From Arthrobacter terrae (GTDB lineage: Bacteria > Actinomycetota > Actinomycetes > Actinomycetales > Micrococcaceae), in NCBI RefSeq assembly GCF_015708085.1, contig NZ_JADNYM010000004.1, forward strand, positions 62,001-126,000: a DNA stretch of 64,000 nt, in the 5' to 3' direction. Positions 7,019 to 60,933 of this stretch are shown in pieces. A program made the translations under genes and the position numbers. Position 1 is the first letter of the stretch. Each line of letters starts with the position of its first letter. The notes beneath the pieces are model-generated. The model searched no databases. It had not been told where the DNA came from and worked only from the letters and a program-made list of their open reading frames with translations.

Positions 7019-7500
7019 GGCCTCAATTCGATGACCGTCTTACCGATCCGGACCGGGACGCCGAGCTCGACCGGCAGTGCGCGGGTCAGTTGCTGGTCGC
7101 CTAGGTATGTGCCGTTCGTCGAGCCCAAATCCTCGATGAACCACCGGCTTCCCTGCGGGAAGAGCCGGGCATGCCGTCCGGAGGCGTAATCGTCTTCGAG
7201 AACGAGCGTGGCTTCTTGAGCTCGACCGAGCAGAATTGGCGTCCCGGACAGTTCCAGAGTGCGCCCGGACAACGGGCCCTCGGTCACCACCAAGGTCCGT
7301 GCCTGGGCACGGACGGGAGGTGCGTCCACCAGTTCGGGGTGTCGGCGCGCCTGGCGGGCCGTTGGTGTGCCGACCTTGGTCTTACGGCCAATCACCAGAT
7401 CCCGGCGCATCGCCCCGACAACGCTGAAGATCATCAGCCACAGCAACAGCAGGAAACCAAAGCGCAGTACGGTAACAGTCAGACCGCTGAGTTCATTCAT
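7015..7500 (-). CDS. fhaB: FHA-domain membrane protein FhaB (FipA-like)
   Basis: A 161-residue phosphothreonine-binding adaptor. It has an N-terminal membrane helix (LTVTVLRFGFLLLLWLMIF) and a C-terminal FHA domain (about 80-160) with GRAQEATL, SGRHARLF and the LGSTNGTYLG signature. Homologues bind phosphorylated PknB substrates and link kinase signalling to cell division and wall synthesis. It overlaps fhaA and pstP by 4 bp each, so translation is probably coupled. Length and domain order are normal. Confidence 0.95.
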   Translation of the reverse strand: MNELSGLTVTVLRFGFLLLLWLMIFSVVGAMRRDLVIGRKTKVGTPTARQARRHPELVDAPPVRAQARTLVVTEGPLSGRTLELSGTPILLGRAQEATLVLEDDYASGRHARLFPQGSRWFIEDLGSTNGTYLGDQQLTRALPVELGVPVRIGKTVIELRP

Positions 7501-43824: not shown

Positions 43825-43964
43825 CCCGGCGACCTGCGTTAGTTCCCGATATCAGCATCATGGCGGTCGAACTATCCGCCGAAACGCGCGAGGACGGCCG
43901 CGTCCTGCTACACCTTGACGGATCAGCGCAATGTGCACACACTGTACATACAAAGGAGAATGCG

Positions 43965-44261
43965 ATGAGTACCAGTTCCCTCCATCCCAAGCCCGTACGA
44001 AGCCAGCGCATCAACGTCAGGGCTACGCCGCGCCAGGAACAGCTGCTGCGCCGGGCCGCTGAAGCTACAGACCGCTCCATGACGGATTTCATCTTGGAAA
44101 GTGCCAGCGTGGAGGCGGAGAGAATACTGGCCGATCGCCTGTGGTTCGTCGCAGACGAGCCGCAATGGGCCGAGTTCAAGCGGCTGCTGGAACTTCCTTT
44201 GACATCCACCGCCAAACTGGCCAAGCTGGCGCGCCGCCCAAGCCCGTTCCAGGGAGAATGA
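43965..44261 (+). CDS. tacA: DUF1778 antitoxin (TacA-like, ribbon-helix-helix)
   Basis: A 98-residue antitoxin. The N-terminal RHH DNA-binding region reads SQRINVRATPRQEQLLRRAA and RSMTDFILESA; the C-terminal tail should bind and block the GNAT toxin. ATG 43965 follows AAAGGAGAA. A TGTGCACA palindrome (43932-43939) upstream could be its operator. Its stop overlaps the toxin ATG (ATGA). The gene looks intact. Confidence 0.9.
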   Translation: MSTSSLHPKPVRSQRINVRATPRQEQLLRRAAEATDRSMTDFILESASVEAERILADRLWFVADEPQWAEFKRLLELPLTSTAKLAKLARRPSPFQGE

Positions 44262-44783
44262 GCCACGCATCGCCTGACGCGCCTCGGAAGCTGCTGCGCA
44301 CCGATAACCGTGACGCCTTCGCTTGGGGGGCTGCGGAACTGGACGAGTGGCTTCGCAGGTACGCCTTCCAGAATCAGCGCGCGAACAGCGCAGTCACCTA
44401 TGTAGCCTGCGACGGGAAGTCCGTGGTCGGCTACTACGCGATAGCCGTCGGGGCGGTTGCAAAGCAGGGAGCTCCGCCGGCAATAACTAAAGGTGGCCCC
44501 TCGGATATACCCTGCATTCTTCTGGCCCGGCTAGCAGTGGACAAGCGGTATCAAGGCACCGGGCTCGGGGCGGGACTCCTTCAGGATGCATTGAAGCGCG
44601 CGGTGTTGGTGCGCGAAAGCATCGGGGGGAATGGCTGTGCTTATCCATGCTCGCGATGCCGCCACCTGGTCATTTCACGACCGTTACGTGGACGCACATC
44701 CTTCCCCGTTGGATGACCTGCAGCTCATGATTCCCATGAAGGCTCTGCGCGCCGAGTTCGCTGGTTTCCTGCCAGGCCGCTGA
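44258..44783 (+). pseudogene. tacT: GNAT acetyltransferase toxin (TacT-like), frameshifted
   Basis: TacT-type toxins acetylate aminoacyl-tRNA and stop translation. The first ~125 codons are normal: LLRTDNRDAFAWGAAELDEWL and the acetyl-CoA loop RYQGTGLGAGLLQDAL. In the GGGGGG run near 44623-44630 the frame slips. Removing one G restores SIGGMAVLIHARDAA and continues to LDDLQLMIPMKAL, with a stop at 44781-44783. As written, the product ends at 44716 with an unrelated tail and lacks the last strands. This is either a true inactivating indel or a homopolymer read error. Confidence 0.8.
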
Positions 44784-44948
44784 ATACCGAATAGCGGCTA
44801 CCCGCGGCAGGCAGTCCGTCTCCTCGTCCACATGGATGAAGTGCCTGCCGTGCCGCTCGTCCAGACGTTGAGGGACGACGGCGTCAGGCTGGTTCCGGTG
44901 CCGGCGTAACCGGAGCGGCTGGCCTGACGACGGGAGTTGCTGTTCATC

Positions 44949-45050
44949 TTCGAAGCAGTCGACGACGACTTCTCCCCCGGACGTGTCGGCGCGGCAGGTC
45001 GCTCCGCCCGATCTCCGCCGCCCCACCACCAGGCTGAGCGCCGCCGCCAT
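44949..45050 (+). pseudogene. Scrap of a PLD-helicase (DUF3427) gene 5' region
   Basis: Two patches match the intact gene at 51.7 kb: TTCGAAGCAGTCGACGACGA versus its TTCGAAAAGGTCGACGACGA, and ATCTCCGCCGCCCCACCACC shared exactly. About 110 bp between them in the intact gene are missing. The rest of 44784-45170 holds nothing else I can support. Confidence 0.65.
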
Positions 45051-45170
45051 GGCTTTTCGCCCTCAGCAAGGAAAATGCAGCTTCAGCAGTTTCATCCCGA
45101 CATACTCTTAGCCGAAGGCTACGGAGCGGGCGCCAGCGGTTTCGGGGTTATGTACGTTCTGTACAGTGAA

Positions 45171-45186
45171 AAGCTAGTATTAGCTT
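45171..45186 (+). promoter_or_regulatory. Palindromic operator at the phd/relE promoter
   Basis: AAGCTA-GTAT-TAGCTT is a perfect 6-bp inverted repeat ending directly before the antitoxin ATG. It includes TAGTAT (45175-45180), a -10 box 6 nt from the start. This suits antitoxin autorepression on a leaderless transcript. Confidence 0.65.
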
Positions 45187-45453
45187 ATGAGTGAGATGAG
45201 CGTGACGGACGCACGGAGTCGCTTGTCCGAAGCGGTTGATACAGCCCGGGTCAAGCATGAACCGGTTTACCTGTTGCGCCACGGCCGACGGGTCGCTGCT
45301 TTGATAGATGCAGAGGACCTCGCCAACCTAATTGAGGCTGCCGAGGATCTGGACGATCTGAAAGCCGCAAACGCAGCCCGGACGGAGATGGCTGAAAGCG
45401 GCCAAGGCCCCATCCCTTGGGAGGAAGTTAAGGCAGAACTCGGCCTCACATGA
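45187..45453 (+). CDS. Phd/YefM-family antitoxin
   Basis: An 88-residue antitoxin. The N-terminal DNA-binding domain reads SVTDARSRLSEAVDTA and PVYLLRHGRRVAALI; the acidic C-terminal half (DLANLIEAAEDLDDLKAA) would wrap the toxin. An internal ATG at 45196 is a second possible start. It overlaps the toxin ATG by 4 bp. The gene looks intact although its toxin partner is frameshifted. Confidence 0.9.
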   Translation: MSEMSVTDARSRLSEAVDTARVKHEPVYLLRHGRRVAALIDAEDLANLIEAAEDLDDLKAANAARTEMAESGQGPIPWEEVKAELGLT

Positions 45454-45712
45454 CTTACGCCGTGCAGATCGCACCGGCAGCCGCACGCCAATTGCGCAAG
45501 CTGCCTCCTGAGTCTCGCCGGCGAATTCAAGCAGCGATCGAGTTGCTCGCTGTTACGCCACGCCCTCGGGGACGAAAAAGCTCGCCGGGAACACGGGAGA
45601 TTGGCGTATCAGGACCGGAGATTACCGGGTCGTCTATGAAATTCATGACGATCGGCTTGTTGTTCTGGTCATTGCTGTGGGCCACCGACGCGGGATTTAC
45701 CAGTCGATTTAA
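45450..45712 (+). pseudogene. RelE/ParE-family toxin, frameshifted
   Basis: The first ~40 codons read YAVQIAPAAARQLRKLPPE and RRRIQAAIELL, then the frame breaks at CTCGGGGACG (about 45567-45576). Adding one G restores KLAGNTGDWRIRTGDYRVVY and VVLVIAVGHRRGIYQSI with a stop at 45710-45712. That restored end is the normal RelE catalytic C-terminus (GDYRVVY, GHRR). As written the frame runs on into the 658-bp repeat and ends at 45848. Confidence 0.85.
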
Positions 45713-45739
45713 AGGTCAATCTCGTGCTCGACTGCCTCG

Positions 45740-46372
45740 TCAGATGGCGGGCGAATTCGGGCCCTTCCTAAGCTTGTGGTTTCGAAACCCGTGGTGCTTG
45801 TCCCCGAGTCCTGGCACGTGGACGTTTGCGAATGGAGCCACACGGTAGGGATCATAAAGTCCGGTTTTTAGCTCGCCAGGAAGACGATCAGCAAAACCAC
45901 GGATCATCTTGGCCTCAATGGCGTGGACATCGCCATCGGCCGGAGCGTAGTGGACGAATAGGGACGGCAGGGCCCGAAGCGCCTTGAGCCACCACCCGCC
46001 ACTGTGCGGAGACCTCGCGCCGATAAGTGTCGAGTGGTACTGCTGGATGCGCTTTGACAGAGACGTTCCCGCGAGCCCAATGTACAGAACCGGCTCGTCG
46101 GCCAGCCAGAATTGTTGAAGACGCGCCTCAAATGCAAGTGCGGTGGCGGCCTGAGCATCTATTGAAAAGTCACCGCATATCTTCACGAGGTCTTCGTAAG
46201 CCTGATTGTCAAAGGGCAATTGCGGGATGCCACTGGCCGTGGAATGAATGTCGGACGTTGTCGAGACCACGTAGACTCCCGGGCGATCTTCGGGCACGCG
46301 CTCACCCCAGTGGACACATCCTGCGGGCCTAAGCGAGGCATCGCCGAATACTTCATCAACGGAAACTGGCAT
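45740..46372 (-). CDS. Truncated copy of the GIY-YIG-like nuclease gene
   Basis: A 210-residue product identical to the first 210 residues of the gene at 50636-51619. It carries the full GIY-YIG-like domain (GVYVVST, LYIGLAG, and a Glu in VHAIEAKMI). The copy lacks the C-terminal ~117 residues and ends with a TGA created at the repeat junction. The -10 box TAGACT is retained, so it may be expressed. It lies inside the 658-bp direct repeat. Confidence 0.7.
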   Translation of the reverse strand: MPVSVDEVFGDASLRPAGCVHWGERVPEDRPGVYVVSTTSDIHSTASGIPQLPFDNQAYEDLVKICGDFSIDAQAATALAFEARLQQFWLADEPVLYIGLAGTSLSKRIQQYHSTLIGARSPHSGGWWLKALRALPSLFVHYAPADGDVHAIEAKMIRGFADRLPGELKTGLYDPYRVAPFANVHVPGLGDKHHGFRNHKLRKGPNSPAI

Positions 46373-46400
46373 GTGGCGAGTCTAAAGGAAACAAGCCGCA
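45743..46400. repeat. 658-bp direct repeat, copy 1
   Basis: Identical by eye to 50990-51647 (offset 5247) over the segments I compared, with identical translation. Similarity weakens but continues to about 46420. It starts 30 bp after the relE toxin fragment. No terminal inverted repeats or transposase are seen. Confidence 0.92.
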
Positions 46401-46576
46401 TACTGCTCTTGCCTCCGCGCGTTATCGCACCTGCTCGTGCGGAAATGCGGCTGAACGAATTCAGCCCTGACAGGCTGGACAGATTCTCGAACAACGTTGC
46501 CGGCGACCATCCGGCCACCGCACGCCACTCTAAAATCGTCCTCACCTCCGCAACCTGCAGGACCTTGAGGACGCGG

Positions 46577-48985
46577 TTAAGACATCATGCTGCCCGATTC
46601 CTGCGGGCCGGCTGCTGCACTGGCGAGGCGCAGCCAAGTGTCCACAACGGTGTCCGGGTTCAGCGACACGGAATCGATGCCTTCGCCAACCAGCCACTGA
46701 GCAAAGTCCGCATGGTCGCTGGGCCCCTGCCCGCAGATCCCCACGTATTTCCCCCGGGCCTTGCAGGCCGTGATGGCCATGCTCAGCAGCTTCTTGACGG
46801 CGGGGTTGCGTTCATCAAAGCTGCCGGCGACTATGGCGGAATCGCGGTCCAGACCCAGGGTCAGCTGGGTCATATCGTTGGAGCCGATGGAGAACCCGTC
46901 GAAGTGGTCCAGGAATTCATCGGCCAGCAGTGCGTTGGCGGGCAGCTCGCACATCATGATGACCTCCAGCCCGTTTTCGCCGCGGCGCAGTCCGTTCTCC
47001 GCGAGCAGGTCGATCACGCCGCGGCCCTCGTCCAGGGTGCGCACAAAGGGGATCATCAGCTTGACGTTGGTCAGACCCATCTCATTGCGCACAAAGGACA
47101 GAGCCTCGCACTCCAGGTCGAAGCAGTCCCGGAAGGATGGCTCCAGGTAGCGGGAAGCGCCGCGGAAGCCGAGCATCGGGTTTTCTTCATGCGGCTCGTA
47201 GGCTGGTCCGCCAAGCAGGTTGGCGTACTCGTTGGACTTGAAGTCGGACATGCGCACAATCACCGGTTGCGGCGCGAACGCGGCGGCGATGGTTGCCACC
47301 CCTTCGGCCAGGCGCTTGATGTAGTAGTCGCGTGGACCGTCGTAAGCGGCAATCCGCTCCCGGATTTGCGCTGCCACGTCCGCCGGTTGTTCGTCCACGT
47401 TGAGGAGGGCCTTGGGGTGGATGCCGATCTGGCGGTTGATGATGAACTCCAGCCGGGCTAGGCCGACACCGTGGTTGGGCAGCTGCGCGAAAGCGAACGC
47501 CTGCTCCGGTGTGCCAACATTCATCATGACCTTAACCGGGGCCTCGGGCAGCTGGGTGACCTCGGTTTCCTGGACGCTGAAATCCAGAAGTCCTTCGTAG
47601 ATCAGCCCGGTCTCGCCTTCGGCGCAGGAGACGGTCACCTCGGTGCCGTCGGAGAGGATGTCCGTGACGTCTCCGGTGCCGACGACGGCGGGAATCCCCA
47701 GTTCGCGGGCGATGATCGCCGCGTGGCAGGTGCGTCCGCCCCGGTTGGTGACGATGGCGGACGCGCGCTTCATGATAGGTTCCCAGTCCGGGTCGGTCAT
47801 GTCCGCGACGAGGACGTCACCGGTTTCGAAGCCCGCCATCTGGTCGATGGCGGTGAGGATGCGGACGCGGCCGGCGCCAATGCGCTGTCCAATGGCACGG
47901 CCTTCGGACAGCACCCGGCCGGTCTCGTTCATGAGGAAGCGGCTGAGCCGGCCCGCGGGCCGACGGGACTGCACGGTCTCCGGGCGGGCCTGCAGAATGT
48001 AGAGGCCACCGTCGATTCCGTCTTTGCCCCATTCGATGTCCATGGGACGCCCGTAATGACGCTCGATGGCGAGGGCATGGCGCGCGAGCTGTTCGACGTC
48101 GTCGTCCGTGATGCTGAAGCGGTTCCGCAGGGCAGCCTCGACCGGCACAAAATCAATGGTGCGGCCGATGTCACGATTGGCCGTGTATGTCATCTGCAGC
48201 GCCTTCTCGCCCAGTCCGCGCTTGAGGATAGCGGGTCCGCCCGCCTCGAGAGCGGGTTTGTATACATAGAACTCGTCCGGGTTGACGGCGCCCTGGACCA
48301 CGGCCTCGCCGAGGCCGTAGGAGGAGGTGACGAAGACGGCGTCCTGGAACCCGGATTCGGTGTCCATGGTGAACATGACCCCGGATGCCCCGACGTCGGA
48401 ACGCACCATGCGCTGGACTCCGGCCGACAGCGCGACCTCGGCGTGCTCGAATTTGTGGTGCACCCGGTAGGCGATGGCACGGTCGTTGTAGAGCGACGCG
48501 AACACATCCTTGATGGCCAGCAGGATGTTGTCGATGCCCCGGACGTTCAAAAAGGTTTCCTGCTGCCCGGCGAAGGAGGCATCGGGAAGGTCTTCGGCCG
48601 TCGCGCTGGAACGGACAGCCCAGGAAAGGTCCGTTGAGCCCCCGTGCTTGTCCACCAACTTCTGGTAGGAGGTGCGGATCTGGGCTTCAAACTCCGGCCG
48701 GAAGGGCGTCTGCCGCATCAGGGTCCGAATTTCCTGGCCCGCCTCGGCCAAGGCAGTCACGTCATCGGTGTCCAGGCCGACCAGCCTGTCGGCAATCCTC
48801 CGGTCCAGGCCCGAGTCGGCCAGGAAGCTGCGATAGGCGTCCGCCGTGGTGGCGAACCCATCCGGCACCTGGACGCCGGCCGAGGTCAGGTTCGTTACCA
48901 TCTCACCGAGAGAGGCGTTCTTGCCGCCCACCCGATCCAAGTCCTTGAGTCCGAGTTCTGAGAACCACAGGATGTCTGTCGTCAT
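46577..48985 (-). CDS. ppsA: Phosphoenolpyruvate synthase (pyruvate, water dikinase)
   Basis: Converts pyruvate plus ATP to phosphoenolpyruvate, AMP and phosphate in gluconeogenesis. The 802-residue product has the ATP-grasp domain ([30 protein letters not shown]), the swivelling domain with phospho-histidine motif [21 protein letters not shown], whose first 20 residues are conserved, and a PEP-binding barrel ending [11 protein letters not shown] and [12 protein letters not shown] 48985 has AAAGGAG 8 nt upstream; the frame opens further upstream without similarity. Its regulator (DUF299) is the next gene upstream on the same strand, 147 bp away. Confidence 0.94.
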
Positions 48986-49132
48986 GGTCATTGCTCCTTT
49001 GCAATCGGCGGCATGTGCGGCGCTGCCTCGGTGTTCGGCGGGCACGGGTTGAAAGCGTCCCCGTCCACCGTGGCAGGTTTCCCCCAAATTTTCCATGTGA
49101 CGTGTGCCACGCGCCTTTTGTGACACTTTTCT

Positions 49133-49951
49133 CTAATGTCTGAGCTGCATCCGCTGCAGGATGGTGGCAGCCATTTCCTCCACAGACACGCTGGCCGAAT
49201 TCAGGTAAGGAATCCCATGCGAGACATACAAAAGTTCGGCGCTGCGCAGCTCAAAGCCGCACTGGCGCAGCGAGGCGTACGGAGAGCCGCGACGACGTTC
49301 GGTGCGGACCTGGCTCAGGCGGAGGGGATTGGAGGTAAGGCCAAAGCACTTCCCAACAAGCGGCCGTAATGGCTTCGGGAGCCCCTCCTGTTCGAAATCC
49401 TCGTCCACGAGCGGGAAGTTCGCGGCGAAGATGCCGTGCTGCAGCGCCAGATACATGGTGGTGGGTGTCTTGCCGCAGCGGGAAGGGGCCACCAGAATGA
49501 TCTGGGCCTTTTCCAACGCCCGCAGACTCTGACCGTCATCATGTTCCATGGCGTATTCGACGGCAGTCATCCGGGATTGATAGCGGGCGGCGTTTCCCAG
49601 ACCATGCGCACGGCCCGGTTCGCCGCTGGCAGGGGTGCCAAGGGCCCGTTCCAGTTGGCCGACGTTCGTCCCGATAAGGTCCACCATCGTTCCCTTGCAT
49701 CGGGCCAGGGTCCGGCGGATGTCGCCGTTGACGGCGGTGGAAAAGACGATCGGTGCCGGGCCGCGGGCGGCGAGTTCATCGATGGTGTCCACGACTGCCT
49801 GCGCCTGTTCGACGGTCATGATGAAGGGGACCGTCGTGCGGTCAAAATTGTTGAAGGGGAACTGCGTCAGCAAGGTGTTGCCGAGCGTTTCTGCGGTGAT
49901 GCCCGTACTGTCCGAGAGGAAGTACACCGGGCGGGGAATCTCATCAGTCAT
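49133..49951 (-). CDS. ppsR: PEP synthase regulatory protein (DUF299 kinase/pyrophosphorylase)
   Basis: Bifunctional enzyme of 272 residues that inactivates PEP synthase by ADP-dependent phosphorylation of a threonine and reactivates it by phosphorolysis. Landmarks are VYFLSDSTGITAETLGN, the P-loop VAPSRCGKTPTTMYLA and NFPLVDEDF. ATG 49951 gives the family N-terminus; the longer frame from 50032 adds an unrelated 27 residues. Co-oriented with and just upstream of ppsA, as expected for a regulator-target pair. Confidence 0.94.
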   Translation of the reverse strand: MTDEIPRPVYFLSDSTGITAETLGNTLLTQFPFNNFDRTTVPFIMTVEQAQAVVDTIDELAARGPAPIVFSTAVNGDIRRTLARCKGTMVDLIGTNVGQLERALGTPASGEPGRAHGLGNAARYQSRMTAVEYAMEHDDGQSLRALEKAQIILVAPSRCGKTPTTMYLALQHGIFAANFPLVDEDFEQEGLPKPLRPLVGKCFGLTSNPLRLSQVRTERRRGSPYASLRQCGFELRSAELLYVSHGIPYLNSASVSVEEMAATILQRMQLRH

Positions 49952-50059
49952 GAACGCATTCTCCCCCAATGTCGCGGCGATGCCGTCAGTGGAGTTGAGT
50001 TCCGGTGGGGTGGGGAGCTTCGCGGGGTCCATGCGGATCAGGCCGTCGCATGGGCTGTA

Positions 50060-50640
50060 TCGGCAGCATGGCGGTTTCTTGGCGGGTGTGCCCGGAGTCC
50101 TCGATGCCTTCGGCGATGTGGGCTAGGTGTTCGGGGATGTCGCGGCCCTTTTTGTGCATGGCGGTGGCCCAGAGGCGTCCGGTCCGGTAGGAGGAGCGCA
50201 CCAGCGGACGGGACATGATGCCCAGGGAGCGCATAGCGGAAGGCCGATCGGATGCGCTTGAAGATCCCGGCACCGTCTCCACATTGTGGGCGAAAAGCTC
50301 CGGGGCGGAATCGTAGATCACGGCGATATGCTCGGGCTTGCCGGAGAAGTCAGGGATGAGCAACTCGACGCCCGTGTTCGGGTTCAGCTCGTGGATCTTG
50401 CACACCGGCTCGGCGTAGGGCCAGACGCCCTCATCGGCCAGGTCGCCGGGGGCATTCGGATCCGCCGATGAGGAACGTCGCCTCCCGGTCCTCCCATCAC
50501 TCAAAGATGCAGCTGGCCTCCTCTCATACAGTGTGCAGGCCCTGGCCCTTGACCAGGTTCTGGAGCTGGCGCTGGAATGCTGGCGACGGCGGCAACGAGG
50601 CCTTCTGCCGTCGGGGCCAGCACCCGTGTCGGTCGTTACC
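50060..50640 (-). pseudogene. lipA: Degraded lipoyl synthase gene (lipA remnant)
   Basis: Minus-strand pieces in order: [53 protein letters not shown]; then [48 protein letters not shown]; then [38 protein letters not shown]. All match lipoyl synthase. The radical-SAM CxxxCxxC core and most of the barrel are deleted. Two cysteines of the auxiliary cluster are now TGA. No function is possible. An intact lipA must be elsewhere. Confidence 0.9.
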
Positions 50641-51619
50641 CGATGATGCGGTAACCGGTGCCATCGGATTCGATATGCACGGGCATATCGGTCGTACCCA
50701 GCTGGCGCATCGTGGCAACTCCGAGACCAAGAAGTCCGGAACGACTCCCTTTTGGGTTCCACGAAACTGTTCGGGATAGATTATGGACGGTTACCAGTAG
50801 CATGCTGGGCTCTGGCGGAAACAAGTACTTGGAACCCGCTGGTATCCGAAGGAAGCTCCTCGAGCGGTCCTTCTCGGTTATGGGCTGGGAAGGAACGCTG
50901 CCGCTATGTCCGGAAGGGGGAGGAATTACGGGCGCTGCAAGCGACTTCACAGATTTTTCGACGGGGGAGCCAGGATCTAAAGGTCCGGCGATGGCGGGCG
51001 AATTCGGGCCCTTCCTAAGCTTGTGGTTTCGAAACCCGTGGTGCTTGTCCCCGAGTCCTGGCACGTGGACGTTTGCGAATGGAGCCACACGGTAGGGATC
51101 ATAAAGTCCGGTTTTTAGCTCGCCAGGAAGACGATCAGCAAAACCACGGATCATCTTGGCCTCAATGGCGTGGACATCGCCATCGGCCGGAGCGTAGTGG
51201 ACGAATAGGGACGGCAGGGCCCGAAGCGCCTTGAGCCACCACCCGCCACTGTGCGGAGACCTCGCGCCGATAAGTGTCGAGTGGTACTGCTGGATGCGCT
51301 TTGACAGAGACGTTCCCGCGAGCCCAATGTACAGAACCGGCTCGTCGGCCAGCCAGAATTGTTGAAGACGCGCCTCAAATGCAAGTGCGGTGGCGGCCTG
51401 AGCATCTATTGAAAAGTCACCGCATATCTTCACGAGGTCTTCGTAAGCCTGATTGTCAAAGGGCAATTGCGGGATGCCACTGGCCGTGGAATGAATGTCG
51501 GACGTTGTCGAGACCACGTAGACTCCCGGGCGATCTTCGGGCACGCGCTCACCCCAGTGGACACATCCTGCGGGCCTAAGCGAGGCATCGCCGAATACTT
51601 CATCAACGGAAACTGGCAT
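50636..51619 (-). CDS. GIY-YIG-like nuclease domain protein, full length
   Basis: A 327-residue protein not assignable to a named family. Residues ~30-175 resemble a GIY-YIG nuclease: GVYVVST (GIY-like), [18 protein letters not shown] (YIG plus the usual arginine after it) and a likely metal-binding Glu in [17 protein letters not shown]. The C-terminal ~110 residues include [20 protein letters not shown] and may be a separate domain. ATG 51619 lies 6 nt after TAGACT, so it looks leaderless. It diverges from the PLD-helicase gene 89 bp away, suggesting a functional link. Its 5' part is duplicated at 45.7 kb. Confidence 0.72.
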
Positions 51620-51647
51620 GTGGCGAGTCTAAAGGAAACAAGCCGCA
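50990..51647. repeat. 658-bp direct repeat, copy 2
   Basis: Second copy of 45743-46400. It contains the first 210 codons of the GIY-YIG-like gene plus 28 bp upstream. Because the gene continues intact beyond the repeat here, this is probably the parent copy. Confidence 0.92.
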
Positions 51648-51708
51648 AACTGCTCTTGCCTTCGCGTCGTCACGCTTCCACATCGTCGTTCTCCATTAGC
51701 CTGGCCAA

Positions 51709-54700
51709 GTGAACACTTTCGTTGGGGGAACAAACGAGGACCGAATCGCTGATCCGCTGGTGCAGGGCCTCTACGAGTCGCTTCACACCGACGGTCTGGC
51801 TGCTCGGTTGGCCGCCCAGCCGGATCTCACTTCCACATTCGAAAAGGTCGACGACGACACCTCCCCGGAGGTCCTGGCACGCCACGTCAGCGAACTGGCA
51901 CGGGTCGCGCTTGCACAAGCGAAACCGGAACACAGGGTCGCCCTGGCAAACAATCTCCTGCAGGCGCTGCAGCATCCGGACACCATCCACCCGGGTCCGC
52001 AGGAACTGAGATCCCTCGCCGCTCCGGCGGGCCTGCGTCGCCGTAATCTCCGCCGCCCCACCACCAGGCTCAGCGACGCCGCCCTGCTCACCAACGGCAA
52101 GGATGATCCGAACCTCGCCGCGGAGATCCGCGCCGAAATGGCGTCGGCCAGCCGGGTTGATCTGCTCTGCGCCTTCATCCGCTGGACAGGGCTTCGTTTG
52201 CTGGAACCGGCACTGGAGGAGCTGCGGGGGAGGGGCATCCGCCTTCGGGTTCTGACCAGCACCTATATGGGTGCCACTGAACGCCGGGCCATCGATGATC
52301 TGGTGACCAAGTACGGCGCCGAGGTCAGGATCAACTATGAAACCCACGCCACGCGCCTGCACGCCAAGGCATGGCTCTTCCGCCGCAGCACCGGTTTCGA
52401 TACGGCCTACGTGGGCAGTTCAAACCTCAGCGCCGCGGCCATGCTGGACGGCCTCGAATGGAACGTCCGGCTGTCCTCGGTGGGCACGGCGCGATTGCTG
52501 CAGAAATTTGAAATCACCTTTGACAGCTATTGGGAGCAGCGGGCCTTTCAGCCCTACGATCCGGGGAACGACGGCGACAAGCTGGACGCCGCGCTCGCCC
52601 GCAACGGCGGCCGAGCAGCCAGCCGGCCGGACACTTTCACGGGTCTGGAGGTGCAGCCTTACCTTCATCAGCAGGAGATGCTCGAGGACCTTGAATCGGC
52701 GCGCGCAATCCACGGCCGGCACCGCAATCTGCTAGTCGCCGCGACCGGCACCGGCAAGACAGTTGTCGCCGCACTGGATTACCAGCGGCTGTGCGCAGCA
52801 GCCGGCCGGGACCTGACGCTGCTCTTCGTCGCGCATCGGCAGGAGATCCTCAAGCAATCCCTGGCCACCTACCGGAACGTCCTACAGAGTGGCTCATTCG
52901 GTGAGCTCTACGTTGGTGAGCACAAGCCCAAGGATTGGAAGCACGTCTTCGCCAGCGTGCAGTCCCTGGCTGCCCTCGGGATCGGGACCATCGAACCGGG
53001 CCAGTTCGACGTCGTCGTGATTGACGAATTCCACCATGCGCAGGCGCCCACCTACCGGGCCATTCTGGAGCACCTGCAGCCACAGGAACTGCTCGGTCTG
53101 ACGGCCACTCCGGAGCGCGGCGACGGGATCAACGTCGCGGACCAGTTCTTCAGCGGCCGGACCGCCAGCGAGCTGCGCCTGTGGGATGCGCTGGAGGCGG
53201 ATCTGCTGGTCCCGTTCCACTATTTTGGGGTGGCCGACGACGTCGACCTGAGCCAGGTGGAGTGGAAGCGCGGCAACTATGACACCGGGCAGCTGGACCG
53301 GCTCTACACCGGCAATGATGCCCGCGCGGCCAAGGTCATCAAAGAGCTCCGCGACAAGGTCACCAGCACCGATGGCATGCGTGCGCTCGGTTTCTGCGTG
53401 TCCGTGCAGCACACGCACTACATGGCCGAGGTCTTCAACGCCGCCGGTATCGCTGCCGTCGCCGTGTCCGGGCAGACGCCCGACGACGAACGTGCGGCCG
53501 CGCTGTCGCGGCTCAGGAGCCGCGAACTGAACGTGATCTTCGCCGTCGACCTCTTCAACGAAGGTCTCGATCTGCCCGAGGTGGATACGATCATGCTGCT
53601 GCGGCCTACCCAAAGTGCCACCGTCTTCCTGCAGCAGCTGGGCCGCGGGTTGCGCCGGGCCAAGGACAAGTCTGTGCTTACCGTGCTCGACTACATCGGC
53701 CAGCAGCGCCGTGAGTTCCGCTTCGACGCCAAGTACCGCGCCTTGACCGGGCTCAGCAGGAAGGCCTTGGAAAAAGCCGTCATCGACGAATTCCCGTTCC
53801 TGCCGTCCGGCTCGCAAATTGTGCTGGACCGGGTGGCTCAACAGATAGTGCTGGCGAATATCAAAGCCCAGCTGAGGTTCAACCGGGCCCAGCTCGTTAC
53901 CGACGTGCGCTCGCATGCCGAACTGCTGCTCGAAGACTTCCTGCGCGAATCGGGCAATTCGCTGCAGGACGTGTACAGGAAGACCGGCGATTCCTGGACC
54001 GCGCTGTTGCGCGACGCCGGTCTGCTCGAGGACGGCCGGATGGCCAGTGGCGATCAGCTTGCCTACATCGACCGTCCGGTACCGGTTGCGGCTGGGCCCG
54101 AACGTTCCATTGCCGAAGAACTTCTTGTTCTCAAGCGCATGACCCAATTGCTCTGTATTGACGATCCCGAACGGGCCGATGCTTATACCCGGCTCACCTC
54201 GCCCGGCGCTCAACGCTACGACGACCTTGGACTGCGCGAACAGACCTTTGCCCGGATGCTCTTCTTCGCGCTCTGGCCCGAAGCCGGCGGCTTCACCTCC
54301 TACGACGAAGGCATTGATTATCTTCGCCAGTTCCCGCATGCCTGCGCCGAAATCCAGCAGCTGGCAGCGCTGGGTCTCAAGCGCTCGCGGTATGCGCCCA
54401 AGGGCTTGGGGCATGGACTTCAACACATTCCGCTCTACTCCCACGCCACCTATCGCCGTGAAGAGATCCTCGCAGCCCTCGGATTTTTGTCCGTGCATGG
54501 CCGGAAAGCCCGGCACCGCGAGGGCGTTGCCTGGAGCGCGGAGACCAAGACGGACGCGTTCTTCGTGACCCTGGAGAAGGACGTCAAGGACCGCGCCGCG
54601 TCCATCATGTACAAGGACTACGCGCTCAGTGAGGACCTGTTCCACTGGGAATCACAGAACTCCACCTCGCCCGAAAGTCCTGTTGGGCAGCGGTACCTGG

Positions 54701-54903
54701 ACCACAAGGCATTCGGTTCCCAGATCCTGTTCTTTACCCGGGCCCGCGAAAACGACGACACTGGCATGACCATGCCGTACACCTGCCTCGGGCAGGTCGA
54801 CTATGTGCAGCACTCGGGATCAAAGCCAATCGCCATCACCTGGAAGCTGCAGCGGCCGATGCCTGCGGACGTGTTTGTATCGGCGAGTGCGGTGGCCCAA
54901 TGA
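51709..54903 (+). CDS. PLD nuclease-SF2 helicase-DUF3427 protein
   Basis: Single protein of 1064 residues with defence-type architecture. The N-terminal phospholipase D-like domain has THATRLHAKAWLF (HxK, about 215-222) and AYVGSSNLS. The SF2 helicase has Walker A ATGTGKT (about 345), DEAD-like DEFHHA (about 437) and QLGRGLRRAKDK. The C-terminal DUF3427 includes SPVGQRYLDHKAFGSQILFF. GTG 51709 lies 6 nt after TAGCCT, so the mRNA may be leaderless. It overlaps the zinc-finger gene by 4 bp. A role in anti-phage restriction is likely but unproven. Confidence 0.88.
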   Translation: MNTFVGGTNEDRIADPLVQGLYESLHTDGLAARLAAQPDLTSTFEKVDDDTSPEVLARHVSELARVALAQAKPEHRVALANNLLQALQHPDTIHPGPQELRSLAAPAGLRRRNLRRPTTRLSDAALLTNGKDDPNLAAEIRAEMASASRVDLLCAFIRWTGLRLLEPALEELRGRGIRLRVLTSTYMGATERRAIDDLVTKYGAEVRINYETHATRLHAKAWLFRRSTGFDTAYVGSSNLSAAAMLDGLEWNVRLSSVGTARLLQKFEITFDSYWEQRAFQPYDPGNDGDKLDAALARNGGRAASRPDTFTGLEVQPYLHQQEMLEDLESARAIHGRHRNLLVAATGTGKTVVAALDYQRLCAAAGRDLTLLFVAHRQEILKQSLATYRNVLQSGSFGELYVGEHKPKDWKHVFASVQSLAALGIGTIEPGQFDVVVIDEFHHAQAPTYRAILEHLQPQELLGLTATPERGDGINVADQFFSGRTASELRLWDALEADLLVPFHYFGVADDVDLSQVEWKRGNYDTGQLDRLYTGNDARAAKVIKELRDKVTSTDGMRALGFCVSVQHTHYMAEVFNAAGIAAVAVSGQTPDDERAAALSRLRSRELNVIFAVDLFNEGLDLPEVDTIMLLRPTQSATVFLQQLGRGLRRAKDKSVLTVLDYIGQQRREFRFDAKYRALTGLSRKALEKAVIDEFPFLPSGSQIVLDRVAQQIVLANIKAQLRFNRAQLVTDVRSHAELLLEDFLRESGNSLQDVYRKTGDSWTALLRDAGLLEDGRMASGDQLAYIDRPVPVAAGPERSIAEELLVLKRMTQLLCIDDPERADAYTRLTSPGAQRYDDLGLREQTFARMLFFALWPEAGGFTSYDEGIDYLRQFPHACAEIQQLAALGLKRSRYAPKGLGHGLQHIPLYSHATYRREEILAALGFLSVHGRKARHREGVAWSAETKTDAFFVTLEKDVKDRAASIMYKDYALSEDLFHWESQNSTSPESPVGQRYLDHKAFGSQILFFTRARENDDTGMTMPYTCLGQVDYVQHSGSKPIAITWKLQRPMPADVFVSASAVAQ

Positions 54904-55196
54904 CCCATACAACTTTCACGTGTCCCATTTGTGGCGCGGACTTCGACGAGAAGAAACTCGCAAATGTGCTACCGCAACACCAGGGGAACGACCTTGGCGA
55001 CTGTGCGCTGTCCGGGATAGGCATCGAAAGAATTCGAGGGGCCCTTGGCGGCCGCGCTCGACCCAAAGAGGTCGTCGTGGATGATCTGACGGCCGTGGGC
55101 CGGTGTCCGGTTTGCGGAAAAACCAAGGAGCTCGCCCACCATTCTAGGCGGGTGGCTAACCATATGTTGCCCAATGGGACTCTGTCTGGGCAGTAA
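54900..55196 (+). CDS. Small two-site zinc-finger protein coupled to the PLD-helicase
   Basis: A 98-residue protein with two apparent zinc sites: CPIC (Cys8, Cys11) with His27 and Cys35, and CPVC (Cys69, Cys72) with His80/81 and His88. ATG overlaps the helicase stop (ATGA), so translation is coupled and the two proteins probably work together. No named family is recognised. It could be an HNH-like remnant or a DNA-binding subunit; there is no clear HNH catalytic core. Function unknown. Confidence 0.7.
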   Translation: MTHTTFTCPICGADFDEKKLANVLPQHQGNDLGDCALSGIGIERIRGALGGRARPKEVVVDDLTAVGRCPVCGKTKELAHHSRRVANHMLPNGTLSGQ

Positions 55197-56568: not shown

Positions 56569-56700
56569 GTGGATGCGTTCGAAACTCGCTACCAACTGAT
56601 TGACGGCTACGGTCCTTCAAGGAGGGCTTTGTCGACGGCGAGGACGGACGCATCAGGGACGGTCTCCGGCATCCAGCGAAGGAGCAGACCTCATGAGTGA
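56569..56700 (+). CDS. Possible 43-codon ORF overlapping mcrB start
   Basis: GTG 56569 with GGGGG 7 nt upstream encodes MDAFETRYQLIDGYGPSRRA and a basic, Ser/Arg-rich rest, ending TGA inside the mcrB start region. It may be a translational leader or the stump of a lost gene. No family is recognised. Confidence 0.3.
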   Translation: MDAFETRYQLIDGYGPSRRALSTARTDASGTVSGIQRRSRPHE

Positions 56701-59700
56701 GACGCAGTGGAAAGAGTTCATGAGGTACGCCGCCAGGTTCGCCGGCGCCGTCGATCTGGATGGTGAAGAACGGAATTACAAACTGGTACTGGCCGAACGG
56801 CTGAAGTCCGCCCGTCAGCTGTTCCTGGACCACAACCCGGACTGGTTCGAGCGGCTCCGTAAGGATCTTTCGTCGACTAATTTGGTTAACCAGTACTTCA
56901 TGATGAAGTTCGTCGATCTGGGCAGGAGCCGCCCGGACGATTTGTGGCGTGTCCTTGAAGGGCTCTGGGGTGGGGATGCGGACGCGGTGCGGCTCGATGC
57001 CTTTGTTGAACAGTTGCGGCCGTTCAATCCTGCCCAGTTCTCTGTCGGCGGCATCGTTGGCCTCGGATCACTGCTGCTCATGTCTGAGAATCCGTGCAGC
57101 TTTCCGCCATACCGTGCGAGGGCGGTCAAGAAGTTCCTCAAACTGGTTGGCTGGGATGATCGCGGAGCAAACGGAACCCCTTCGCGCCGCTACGAATTGC
57201 TGCTCGAAGCCATGGACGAACTGCTGCGGCTCGCTCCCTTCCACGGAATCGAGTTGCGGGACCGCCTGGGCGCTCAAGGATTGATGTGGCAGGTGCTGAA
57301 CGCAGAACCACCGGAGGATTGGCCGATGAATGATCAAATTGAGTTTCGGGTGTGGAGGGGGGAGACGCCGTCGACGGCTGCGGAATCGAATCCGGCGAGT
57401 AGGCCGTTCGGGCCCAACCCGGAGTTGGAAGCCGCGGCGCGCGCCATACTCGATGCCGGGCTGCTGTCGCTGTCGTCCCCGTTGGGCGGCGGCGAGACGA
57501 CGTGGACCTCCGAGAACGCCGCGGAGATACTACATCGGGTGCTGGACAACTACGACGGCGGCGAGGGCAGTTTTCTGAGTAAGCTGGAAAAGCAACTCCA
57601 CGGGGCATCTCCGGCGGTCATCCGGCTCACCGGTGAGCTCATCGCCCTGCAATCCTTGCCTCTGGTCAATATCACTCCATCGACCAAAAAAGCACGCGTC
57701 GAGCGGGTTCTGAGTTGGCTGGACGAAGATCAGGAAATTCCGGAGGTCATTGCTTCCGGACTGGCTGCTCGCGGGGCATTCAACGGCGGCACGGGGTTCA
57801 ATATGAACCAATGGCGGCATCTGCGCTGGCTGGCCAAGTTCGTGGCCCACACACGGGAGTCAGAAGAAGCAGCTCATCAGGCCTTGCGCACGCCCGAAGC
57901 CTTCATCGACCTCACGGCCTCAACACCGGACGACGTTCCCGCCATTCGGTACACCGTGGAGTACCTTGCCTGGCCGTCCTATTGCGAACCGGTGGTCAAC
58001 AAGGAGCATCGCCGGCGGATCCGCAACGCTTTCGCGCAGGAAGTAGGCGGGGCTAACGGGGACAGCGAACAGGAAATCGCCCGGGATCTTAATTCCATCC
58101 GCACGGCACAGGAGGCCGGACTTGGGCACGACGTTGAGTGGTACGACGAGCCCTTCTTCAGTCAATGGTCCGGTGCGAGGCCCAGCGGCGTGCGGGCATG
58201 GCTCGTCCGGCAGAATCAGGGTGGCATTGCCATGCTGGATTCATGGCTGGACGGTGAATTTATCTCGACCCGGGCCCAGCATCTTGGTTCGCCCGCCCCC
58301 GGGAGCGGCTACGACGAAGTTCAGGCCGCCGTCAATGGTGGTTACCAGCACATTGACTATTCTGAGCGAAAGGCCCGGGCACAGGAATATTTCCGGTTCC
58401 TGAGTCAGATGAAACCCGATGATTTTATTGTGACCGCCCATGGCGAAGACCTCTACTTGGGTGTCGTGACCGGGAGCGCTGAATATGTAGAGGTCGAATC
58501 TTCGCGTCTACGCCGCGACGTCCTTTGGCGCAAGCAGCCCATCAGGAACCTTGACCTCCCCGCACCTTTGCCGCGCCTGCTCGAAGAGCAGGGTACGGTG
58601 GTGGACCTCACCGACGCTCTGCCAACCATTAGAGGCTGGTTCGCCCAGGAACTCGAAGACGCGGACCTTCCAATCGTCGTCGTGCCACCCCTGCCGCAGC
58701 CCGCCGTCGTACCTATCTTGAGGCCAGCCTCCGACGAGCTGGCCTCTCGACTGCATCTAAATCGCGAAGATATCCAAGAGGTCATCGACCTGCTTCAAAC
58801 ACGTAGCCAAATTGTTTTCTACGGGCCACCGGGAACGGGGAAAACCTACCTTGCCGGCAAAATCGCAAGGTTCTTGGCTGGTGAAGAACACGGCGACCAC
58901 GTCAAGACTGTCCAGTTCCACCCGTCCTATGCGTACGAGGACTTCTTCGAGGGCTACCGCCCGGCTGAGACAGAGGGAGGCGCCGTCGGGTTCAGTCTGG
59001 AGCCAGGGCCCCTGCGTCAGATTGCCGGTGAGGCATCGGCCGAGGGGAACAGGGACAAGCCGTACTTCCTCATCATCGACGAGATGAACCGCGGCAACCT
59101 CGCAAAGGTTTTTGGGGAGCTGTACTTCCTGCTGGAGTACAGGGATCAGAGCATCAGCCTGCAGTACAACCCCACGAAAACCTTTGTGCTCCCACCTAAC
59201 CTTTTCATCATCGGCACCATGAACACGTCCGACCGGTCCATCGCCATGGTGGACGCGGCCATCCGTCGGCGCTTCGCCTTCGTCGAGCTCCACCCGGAGG
59301 ACGGCATGATTTCCGGACTCCTCGAACGCTACCTCGCAGCCAACCACAAGCCGATGCTGCGAGCCCAGCTGCTGAACGCCCTAAACGCGGAGATCGAGGC
59401 CACCAACCGCGACCTAATGATCGGGCCTTCCTACTTCATGAAGGATCATGCCGAGACCGATCGCGGGCTGGAGCAGATCTGGAAGTACGAGCTGCTGCCG
59501 TTGCTCGAGGAGCAGTACTTTGGACGGTTGAGCCGTCAGAAAGTGCATGAAAAGTTTGGCCTGGGCGCCATGCGGAAGACCGTTGAGAGGCAGCTCGCCG
59601 CCGTCGACTTGATTGCCGCAGGGTCGGCCGACGTCGAATTTGGCGATGGGCTCAATGCGACGAAAATGAATCCGACGGACGCTGAGGACGCGTCCTTCTG

Positions 59701-59701
59701 A
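56693..59701 (+). CDS. mcrB: McrB-like AAA+ GTPase with EVE/PUA-like reader domain
   Basis: Motor subunit of a modification-dependent restriction system, 1002 residues. A long N-terminal region (1-490) of unknown fold is followed by an EVE/PUA-like domain (about 498-620: AWLVRQNQGGIAMLDSW, DFIVTAHGEDLYLGVVTG) that may flip out modified bases. The C-terminal AAA+ module (about 690-990) has Walker A GPPGTGKTY, VQFHPSYAYEDFFEGYRP, Walker B LIIDEMNRGN and sensor TMNTSDRSIAMVD with RRRFAF. The MNxxD sensor is McrB-specific. ATG 56693 has AAGGAG. Ends TGATG into mcrC. Confidence 0.9.
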   Translation: MSETQWKEFMRYAARFAGAVDLDGEERNYKLVLAERLKSARQLFLDHNPDWFERLRKDLSSTNLVNQYFMMKFVDLGRSRPDDLWRVLEGLWGGDADAVRLDAFVEQLRPFNPAQFSVGGIVGLGSLLLMSENPCSFPPYRARAVKKFLKLVGWDDRGANGTPSRRYELLLEAMDELLRLAPFHGIELRDRLGAQGLMWQVLNAEPPEDWPMNDQIEFRVWRGETPSTAAESNPASRPFGPNPELEAAARAILDAGLLSLSSPLGGGETTWTSENAAEILHRVLDNYDGGEGSFLSKLEKQLHGASPAVIRLTGELIALQSLPLVNITPSTKKARVERVLSWLDEDQEIPEVIASGLAARGAFNGGTGFNMNQWRHLRWLAKFVAHTRESEEAAHQALRTPEAFIDLTASTPDDVPAIRYTVEYLAWPSYCEPVVNKEHRRRIRNAFAQEVGGANGDSEQEIARDLNSIRTAQEAGLGHDVEWYDEPFFSQWSGARPSGVRAWLVRQNQGGIAMLDSWLDGEFISTRAQHLGSPAPGSGYDEVQAAVNGGYQHIDYSERKARAQEYFRFLSQMKPDDFIVTAHGEDLYLGVVTGSAEYVEVESSRLRRDVLWRKQPIRNLDLPAPLPRLLEEQGTVVDLTDALPTIRGWFAQELEDADLPIVVVPPLPQPAVVPILRPASDELASRLHLNREDIQEVIDLLQTRSQIVFYGPPGTGKTYLAGKIARFLAGEEHGDHVKTVQFHPSYAYEDFFEGYRPAETEGGAVGFSLEPGPLRQIAGEASAEGNRDKPYFLIIDEMNRGNLAKVFGELYFLLEYRDQSISLQYNPTKTFVLPPNLFIIGTMNTSDRSIAMVDAAIRRRFAFVELHPEDGMISGLLERYLAANHKPMLRAQLLNALNAEIEATNRDLMIGPSYFMKDHAETDRGLEQIWKYELLPLLEEQYFGRLSRQKVHEKFGLGAMRKTVERQLAAVDLIAAGSADVEFGDGLNATKMNPTDAEDASF

Positions 59702-60933
59702 TGCTGCGGCATCTGGTTCTTGACGAACTTCAATCCGACTCGGTCACGGTGGAGCTGGACGAGGAAACGATGGCCAGTCTGAGGGACACCGGACTGGTAT
59801 CCGTCGCTCCGGCTCGCGGTGGCCGTTGGGTGATACTGCCCTGCGGCCCGGTAGGCGCGGTTCAGGTCGGTGAACTTCTGGTCGAGGTGAAACCCAAAGC
59901 CAAAGTTGGGCTCAGCCGATTGCTGTTCCTGCTCGGCTACGCAAGAAATCCTGGTTTCCGGCCGGACGATGTGACAGGCCTGGAGGACAAGGACCTCTTC
60001 TCGGCACTGGCCGAGTCATTGGTGCGTCAGGCCGAACGGGCCTTTAGCCAAGGAGTCCTCAACGGCTATGTCTCCGTGGATGACGCACTGAGAACTGTCC
60101 GCGGACGGATCCGGGTCGGGGATCAGATGACCCGGCGCCCCGGGATGCTGATCCCGTTAGAGGTCTCCTACGACGACTTCACTGTGGACATCCCTGAGAA
60201 CCGGATCCTCCGTGGTGCGATCCGACTGATGCTGCATCTCCCACGGCTATCTGGGGATCTGCAGGCGCGGCTGGGTCATCTCGATGCCAAGCTCGACGGC
60301 GTCGCACTGCTCCGTCCGGGGAGGGCCCGGCCAGTCTGGCGGGAGACTCGGCTGAACGACCGCTACGTCCCCGCCTTGCGCCTGGCGGAAATCATCTTGC
60401 AGAACATGTCCGCCGAAGCCGGGCTGGGGAGGCAGACGGTCACTTCATTCGTCGTCAACATGGCAACGGTATTCGAGGACTTTGTCACGACCGCGCTAAC
60501 GGAGGCACTGTCCAAGTATCCCGGACAGACGATGGCACAGTATGAAACCTATCTGGATGAGGAGGACGGACGCCCTAATGCTAAGCGCGTACAGATGTAC
60601 GTCGATGTTGTTCACGAAATTGAGCGATTGCCGGCGCTGATATTTGACGCCAAATACAAAGCCGCATCATTCAGCGGGTATCCGAACGCAGATCACTATC
60701 AGATGCTCGCATACTGCACGGCGTTGAGGCTTCCCGTGGCGTGGCTTGTGTATGCGGGTTCCGGTCCCTCGAGGACGAGGCGGATCCGCAACTCGGAAGT
60801 ATCCATCGTTGAGTTTCCGATTGACGTTTCCCAGACGCCGGAGATGCTGTTGGTGCGGGTTCAGCGGCTTGCTGACTCAGCGTTGAGATTCAGGGTAGGT
60901 TCGGCGTTAGCGGAACCGGTCTTAATGGACTGA
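59701..60933 (+). CDS. mcrC: McrC-like restriction nuclease subunit
   Basis: Nuclease partner of McrB, 410 residues. Family landmarks are LLFLLGYARNPGF, ESLVRQAERAFSQGVLNGY and the PD-(D/E)XK segment LPALIFDAKYKAA (D-x-K about residue 314-316). ATG overlaps the mcrB stop by one base (TGATG), typical for mcrBC. Expected to cut DNA carrying modified cytosines or other modified bases read by the McrB partner. Confidence 0.93.
   Translation: MLRHLVLDELQSDSVTVELDEETMASLRDTGLVSVAPARGGRWVILPCGPVGAVQVGELLVEVKPKAKVGLSRLLFLLGYARNPGFRPDDVTGLEDKDLFSALAESLVRQAERAFSQGVLNGYVSVDDALRTVRGRIRVGDQMTRRPGMLIPLEVSYDDFTVDIPENRILRGAIRLMLHLPRLSGDLQARLGHLDAKLDGVALLRPGRARPVWRETRLNDRYVPALRLAEIILQNMSAEAGLGRQTVTSFVVNMATVFEDFVTTALTEALSKYPGQTMAQYETYLDEEDGRPNAKRVQMYVDVVHEIERLPALIFDAKYKAASFSGYPNADHYQMLAYCTALRLPVAWLVYAGSGPSRTRRIRNSEVSIVEFPIDVSQTPEMLLVRVQRLADSALRFRVGSALAEPVLMD

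Follow-up and report, generated by a model that had tools for sequence, protein, structure and literature searches.

A decayed 5′ remnant of a SauUSI-like restriction gene between two toxin-antitoxin loci of Arthrobacter terrae

The analyzed stretch of Arthrobacter terrae DNA (64,000 nucleotides, hereafter the window) carries, from left to right, a TacA/TacT-like toxin-antitoxin locus (TacAT), the relic of a helicase gene, a Phd/YefM and RelE/ParE-like locus (Phd/RelE), a GIY-YIG-like gene (copy A), the genes for PPDK and its Kinase-PPPase partner (PDRP), lipA remains, a second GIY-YIG copy (copy B), and an intact helicase gene (Table 1). A preliminary description had placed the relic between TacT and Phd loci, and the Pfam matches on both sides agree with this position. 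The Phd/RelE locus was also matched by a plasmid sequence annotated Phd/YefM and RelE/ParE. For comparison within the genus, we used a sample of five genomes, all drafts: the window's own (G000), whose assembly is listed with 3.86% contamination, Arthrobacter sp. H14-L1 (G001), Paenarthrobacter sp. PH39-S1 (G003), G002, and G004. The TacT-like (44141-44783) and RelE-like (45450-45848) frames of the window appear broken compared to the 209-aa and 87-aa open reading frames (ORFs), respectively, of G003.

Table 1. Features of the locus, in window coordinates
Feature	Position	Strand	Remarks
TacA/TacT-like toxin-antitoxin locus	43860..44783	+	left of relic; Pfam TacA1, Acetyltransf_1
Relic part 1	44841..44929	+	former upstream segment ("leader") of helicase allele; 82% over 85 bp to G001
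Relic part 2	44930..45001	+	eroded N-terminal coding region
Relic part 3	45011..45051	+	41-bp patch versus helicase 52046-52086 (38/41), about codons 113-126
Phd/YefM antitoxin and RelE/ParE-like toxin	45187..45710	+	right of relic; Pfam PhdYeFM_antitox
GIY-YIG-like copy A	45740..46372	-	210 aa, own stop, RelE neighbor
H1 junction	46419..46420	.	G003 and G001 carry the H1 fragment here, ahead of PPDK; the window is without it
PPDK and Kinase-PPPase partner (PDRP)	46577..50032	-	conserved block between the two sides
GIY-YIG copy B	50990..51666	-	677-bp, 99.7% repeat of 45743-46419; without own stop
SauUSI-like type IV restriction gene	51709..54903	+	1064 aa; PLDc_2, ResIII, Helicase_C, DUF3427
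N-terminal segment of intact gene	51709..51934	+	allele differs from the G001 one; breakpoint placed best after 51934

The product of the intact helicase gene scored 1116.6 bits against the PADLOC model of type IV methyl-directed restriction enzymes (mREase_IV, PDLC03659) and matched PDB entry 7clg, titled "Putative helicase," which we take to be SauUSI, at an E value of 5e-84. Like the members of the SauUSI family, it combines in a single chain a PLD nuclease domain (PLDc_2 at residues 167-275, ahead of the helicase; E 2.5e-10, 40.7 bits versus a cut-off of 27), an SF2 helicase (ResIII, E 1.6e-34; Helicase_C, E 9e-15), and a C-terminal DUF3427 part (residues 885-1056, E 2.4e-20). It differs in having about 110 N-terminal residues that precede the range covered by the PADLOC match (116-1062). 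In all 12 orthologs compared, these 110 residues (51709-52038) showed less conservation than the body; the 12 were drawn from the 14 genomes with long loci by leaving out L013 and L014 and including one partial frame. SauUSI is described as cleaving m5C-modified DNA in an ATP-dependent manner and as needing two sites (PMC3874153), and by analogy the enzyme encoded in the window would cut methylated DNA. The dN/dS of the body was 0.11 against G001 (985 codons), and the intact gene therefore looks maintained. A second apparent type IV system lies nearby, in the form of a McrB-like gene (56600-59701; AAA_5, with McrB assigned by eye), whose end is overlapped by an ORF at 59701-60933 that is McrC-like by position only.

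Self-BLAST of the window matched a short, GC-rich patch at 45011-45051 to the intact helicase gene (38 of 41 positions identical, E 2e-9). A more sensitive search, with 44784-45190 as the query and the target limited to the helicase region (51600-55000), detected a second, colinear patch at 44916-45000 that matched 51805-51888 at 56 of 85 positions (E 2e-6). Hence the alignment is not confined to a single short GC-rich match, and the preliminary description was right in recognizing two patches of the helicase 5′ region with the middle missing: the patches are separated by 10 bp in the relic compared to 157 bp in the intact gene (51889-52045). The scores of the patches, 35 and 24, were above all controls. 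The best score against the helicase gene was 21 among 431 other 407-bp pieces of the window (plus strand only, excluding any that overlapped the fragment or the helicase) and 19 among 500 dinucleotide shuffles of the fragment, so that 24 or 35 was reached by 0 of 431 and 0 of 500, respectively.

Across 99 genomes, the sequence 44784-45190 was matched in 13 (E <= 0.001), four of them from the genus (the window's own, G001, G002, and G003); the match in G002 is the region ahead of Phd. Each of the nine genomes outside the genus had one short match of 30 to 58 bp, and short matches to the relic DNA are therefore not rare. Four of these fell inside part 1 (within 44869-44924, 30 to 45 bp), one inside part 2, and four, from 94 genomes outside the genus, on 45011-45051 (34 to 58 bp at 79 to 89% identity). 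When the nine loci were inspected, eight were found again and one (L019) was not; the long frames there appeared by eye to encode other kinds of protein, including two dehydratase-like frames for part 3. Among the 99 genomes, no match outside the genus equaled those of the window's own genome (E 4.8e-10), G001, or G003 in length or E value.

The relic is longer than first described, extending over about 44841-45051. Its part 1 corresponds, from 44841 to 44924, to the sequence that immediately precedes the helicase in G001, and this upstream segment is its only full-length match besides the G003 relic, where part 1 is present too. Part 1 is possibly coding, because its counterpart in G001 is in frame with the helicase. 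The joint between parts 1 and 2 is a deletion of ∼138 alignment columns relative to G001, which takes out the position corresponding to the start codon of the window gene and reaches about codon 26. Part 3 could be of separate origin, given how uneven the two patches are in their identity to the window gene (38/41 versus 56/85). The reading frame is interrupted by stops. With colinear homology, 157 bp missing, the start region deleted, and in-frame stops, the relic has the features of a pseudogene, and it is presumably not expressed.

A relic is found at the same place in G003, between TacAT and Phd/RelE, and is 80.9% identical to window positions 44840-45001 over 162 bp. It retains 73 bp of the middle that was lost from the window relic; the 41-bp patch of part 3 was not found in it. 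Since the ∼138-column deletion joint is common to both relics, the relic is older than the split between the window and G003. The G003 relic lies within an open 132-aa ORF (L030:8474-8872), so that it is recognizable as a relic not by a stop but only by the absence of the rest of the gene, and a short product may conceivably still be made from it. Over the N-terminal sites, the window relic was identical to the G001 helicase at 63 of 88 positions, compared to 56 of 88 for the window's own helicase and 48 of 88 for G002; its identities to the two H1 fragments described below were 48 of 76 and 47 of 79. In column bootstraps that compared G001, the window gene, and G002, with the H1 fragments left out, G001 was ahead of the other two in 939 of 1000 replicates for the window relic and in 997 of 1000 for the G003 relic. 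By these affinities, the relic represents an older allele, akin to the helicase 5′ end that is now intact in G001.

The relatives share parts of this gene order. Read in the orientation of the window, G003 has TacAT, the relic, Phd/RelE, an internally deleted GIY-YIG gene, a second helicase 5′ fragment (H1), PPDK, PDRP, and lipA; a full helicase was not found in this genome. In G001, a 116-bp Phd piece lies further left, followed by an H1 fragment, PPDK, PDRP, the upstream segment, and the full helicase. In G002, helicase similarity is limited to a stretch that matches codons 13 to 318, near a contig start; in G004, it is limited to 111 bp from the 3′ part of the gene. Five of the six partial helicase matches listed for the five genomes come from the 5′ third of the gene. 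As for the neighboring genes, the lipA-like remains of the window (50064-50568, labeled by eye) lie upstream of PDRP in a region that continues in the same order in G003 and G002, and a fuller lipA-like copy is present elsewhere in the window's genome (G000:C24:47282-48328). That genome also has a second, decayed PPDK copy (G000:C22:22165-22832), and another long PPDK match lies on contig C77 of G003.

Near their start, the helicases of the window and G001 differ in allele, with a sharp breakpoint. Mismatches between the window and G001 helicases numbered 54 in 169 positions up to 51934 and 231 in 2966 after it (chi2 113), compared to a maximum of 24.1 in 1000 permutations, and none of 1000 block permutations reached 113. 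The dS between the two genes was 0.97 in the N-terminal part (69 codons) and 0.27 in the body, with the shift near codon 76. The window helicase N terminus resembles the H1 fragments, with 90.9% identity over 219 bp to that of G003, which adjoins both GIY-YIG and PPDK, and 84.1% over 220 bp to that of G001, which adjoins PPDK. In G003 the GIY-YIG gene (7377-7905 of L030) and the helicase start (7165-7383) form a divergent pair at the left position.

The nearby GIY-YIG duplication noted in the preliminary description was confirmed as the repeat listed in Table 1. Copy B appears to be derived from copy A, because its similarity starts one base after the stop of copy A, its ORF runs on for 117 aa of unrelated sequence, and copy A, with its stop, lies beside RelE in the same arrangement as in G003. 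A search of 59 genomes, including the window's own, for the source of the run-on (50562-50989) returned only the sequence itself and one 25-bp match. Among the five genus genomes, GIY-YIG loci gave two matches in the window's genome and none or one genuine locus in each of the other four; among all 99 genomes, the protein was present in two, the window's own and G003, whose copy is without codons 21 to 80, and only the window's genome had two copies. The GIY-YIG motif was read by eye, and the Pfam model GIY_YIG_2 gave 13.6 bits for copy A, below the cut-off of 22.4, and no match for copy B. No match to the protein was found in plasmids or phages. We also considered whether a GIY-YIG protein is a conserved partner of SauUSI-like genes and obtained no support for this idea: besides its presence in only 2 of 99 genomes, nothing was found at 15 helicase loci from 14 genomes (G001 counted twice; flanks of 1.5 kb for eight loci and longer for the others), where the best tblastn E value was 0.38.

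The reading we favor, with a probability of roughly 0.8, is that the relic is the 5′ end of an old allele, not the partner of GIY-YIG copy A, and that copy A and an H1 fragment were later copied onto the resident helicase. A SauUSI-like type IV restriction gene once stood between the TacAT and Phd/RelE loci, and the dead relic represents the upstream segment and N-terminal codons of this lost gene, decayed by at least two deletions, one of the start region, common to G003, and one of ∼150 bp, in the window only. Later and separately, copy A and the H1 fragment were probably copied onto the resident gene, which lies ∼5 kb to the right. This would have produced copy B and a helicase N terminus whose allele differs from the G001 one, after which the window would have lost its original H1 fragment. 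The identity of the relic, its shared joint, the sharp breakpoint, the GIY-YIG repeat, and the H1 fragment in relatives are observations, and the direction of copying, and recombination as its means, are inferred.

Two other accounts of the relic itself fared poorly. One is that the patches reflect a chance or composition-driven match between GC-rich stretches of DNA; although part 3 is short and GC-rich, 4 of 94 genomes from outside the genus contain short look-alikes of it, and the longer patch is just 66% identical, none of the window pieces or shuffles scored as well, and the G003 ortholog fills part of the gap in the relic. On the strength of these controls and of the ortholog, we regard chance as scarcely credible and ruled it out as the source of the patches. 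The other is the proposal of the preliminary description that a single duplication copied the divergent GIY-YIG/helicase pair whole, with the GIY-YIG half staying exact and the helicase half decaying to the relic. The 99.7% GIY-YIG repeat and the occurrence of both kinds of fragment in one neighborhood speak for it, and so does the divergent pair of G003, by which the idea that such a pair once stood at the left is upheld. The relic, however, is not the helicase half of that pair. In the intact pair the helicase lies 5′ of GIY-YIG, whereas the relic is found past the 3′ end of copy A and is separated from it by Phd/RelE. Nor does it appear to be a duplicate of the same age, given the 66% identity of the longer patch and the deletion joint shared with G003, compared to GIY-YIG copies that are 99.7% identical and whose duplication G003 does not share. 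Its affinity is also to the G001 allele rather than to the window's own helicase. Duplication as a unit was rejected for the relic on these grounds of geometry, age, and affinity, and we consider it very improbable.

A further alternative concerns only the second half of the history and leaves the identity of the relic unchanged. Here copy B and the N-terminal segment were imported from another strain by homologous recombination, after which copies A and B were converted alike, or else it was the G001 N terminus that was replaced. The H1 fragments stop at about 51878, so local copying from them does not account for the whole N-terminal segment; positions 51879-51939 are missing from the known H1 fragments and are nearer to G002 (46 of 60) than to G001 (40 of 60). 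A longer allele may have been imported, or the G001 N terminus replaced instead, and the sharp helicase breakpoint and the near identity of the two GIY-YIG copies would also fit. Import, however, needs an extra event, and copy B has neither a 3′ end nor a stop of its own, which is what a partial copy made locally would show. We hold import to be a serious though less likely rival, and local copying of GIY-YIG and the helicase start onto the resident gene to be what probably happened.

Exchange of N-terminal alleles may have occurred. A bolder idea is that the fast-changing N-terminal extension is swapped between alleles by recombination, drawing on the nearby 5′ remains and the GIY-YIG gene as a local reservoir of donors. 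Strains would in this way alter a part of the enzyme concerned with regulation or targets and keep the body unchanged. We consider this unlikely. The titles and abstract openings surveyed contained no report of N-terminal exchange in the SauUSI family. The locus would gain in importance if the N-terminal extension were an exchangeable module that altered what the enzyme senses. As it stands, it documents turnover of a type IV restriction locus in Arthrobacter relatives: traces of former alleles persist as 5′ scars, and close relatives carry different alleles at the start of the gene that survives.

Compared to known systems, the relic differs from the SauUSI family in that it is itself no gene. 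Silent-cassette gene conversion systems include pilS, vlsE, and hsdS shuffling. The locus resembles these in having partial copies near an intact gene, one end of which varies between strains, but no cassette array or recombinase was seen here, only two alleles, in two genomes, are known, and stops and deletions interrupt the window relic. A further parallel is with the pseudogenes of restriction genes that accompany the turnover of defense islands, since broken remains are found here beside toxin-antitoxin genes and an apparent McrB-like system. Two features set the window locus apart from this pattern: it holds several remains, most of them from the start of the gene, and two close relatives have different alleles at the 5′ end of the intact gene. 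The relic is an ordinary fossil of the turnover of phage defense genes and not half of a recently duplicated pair.
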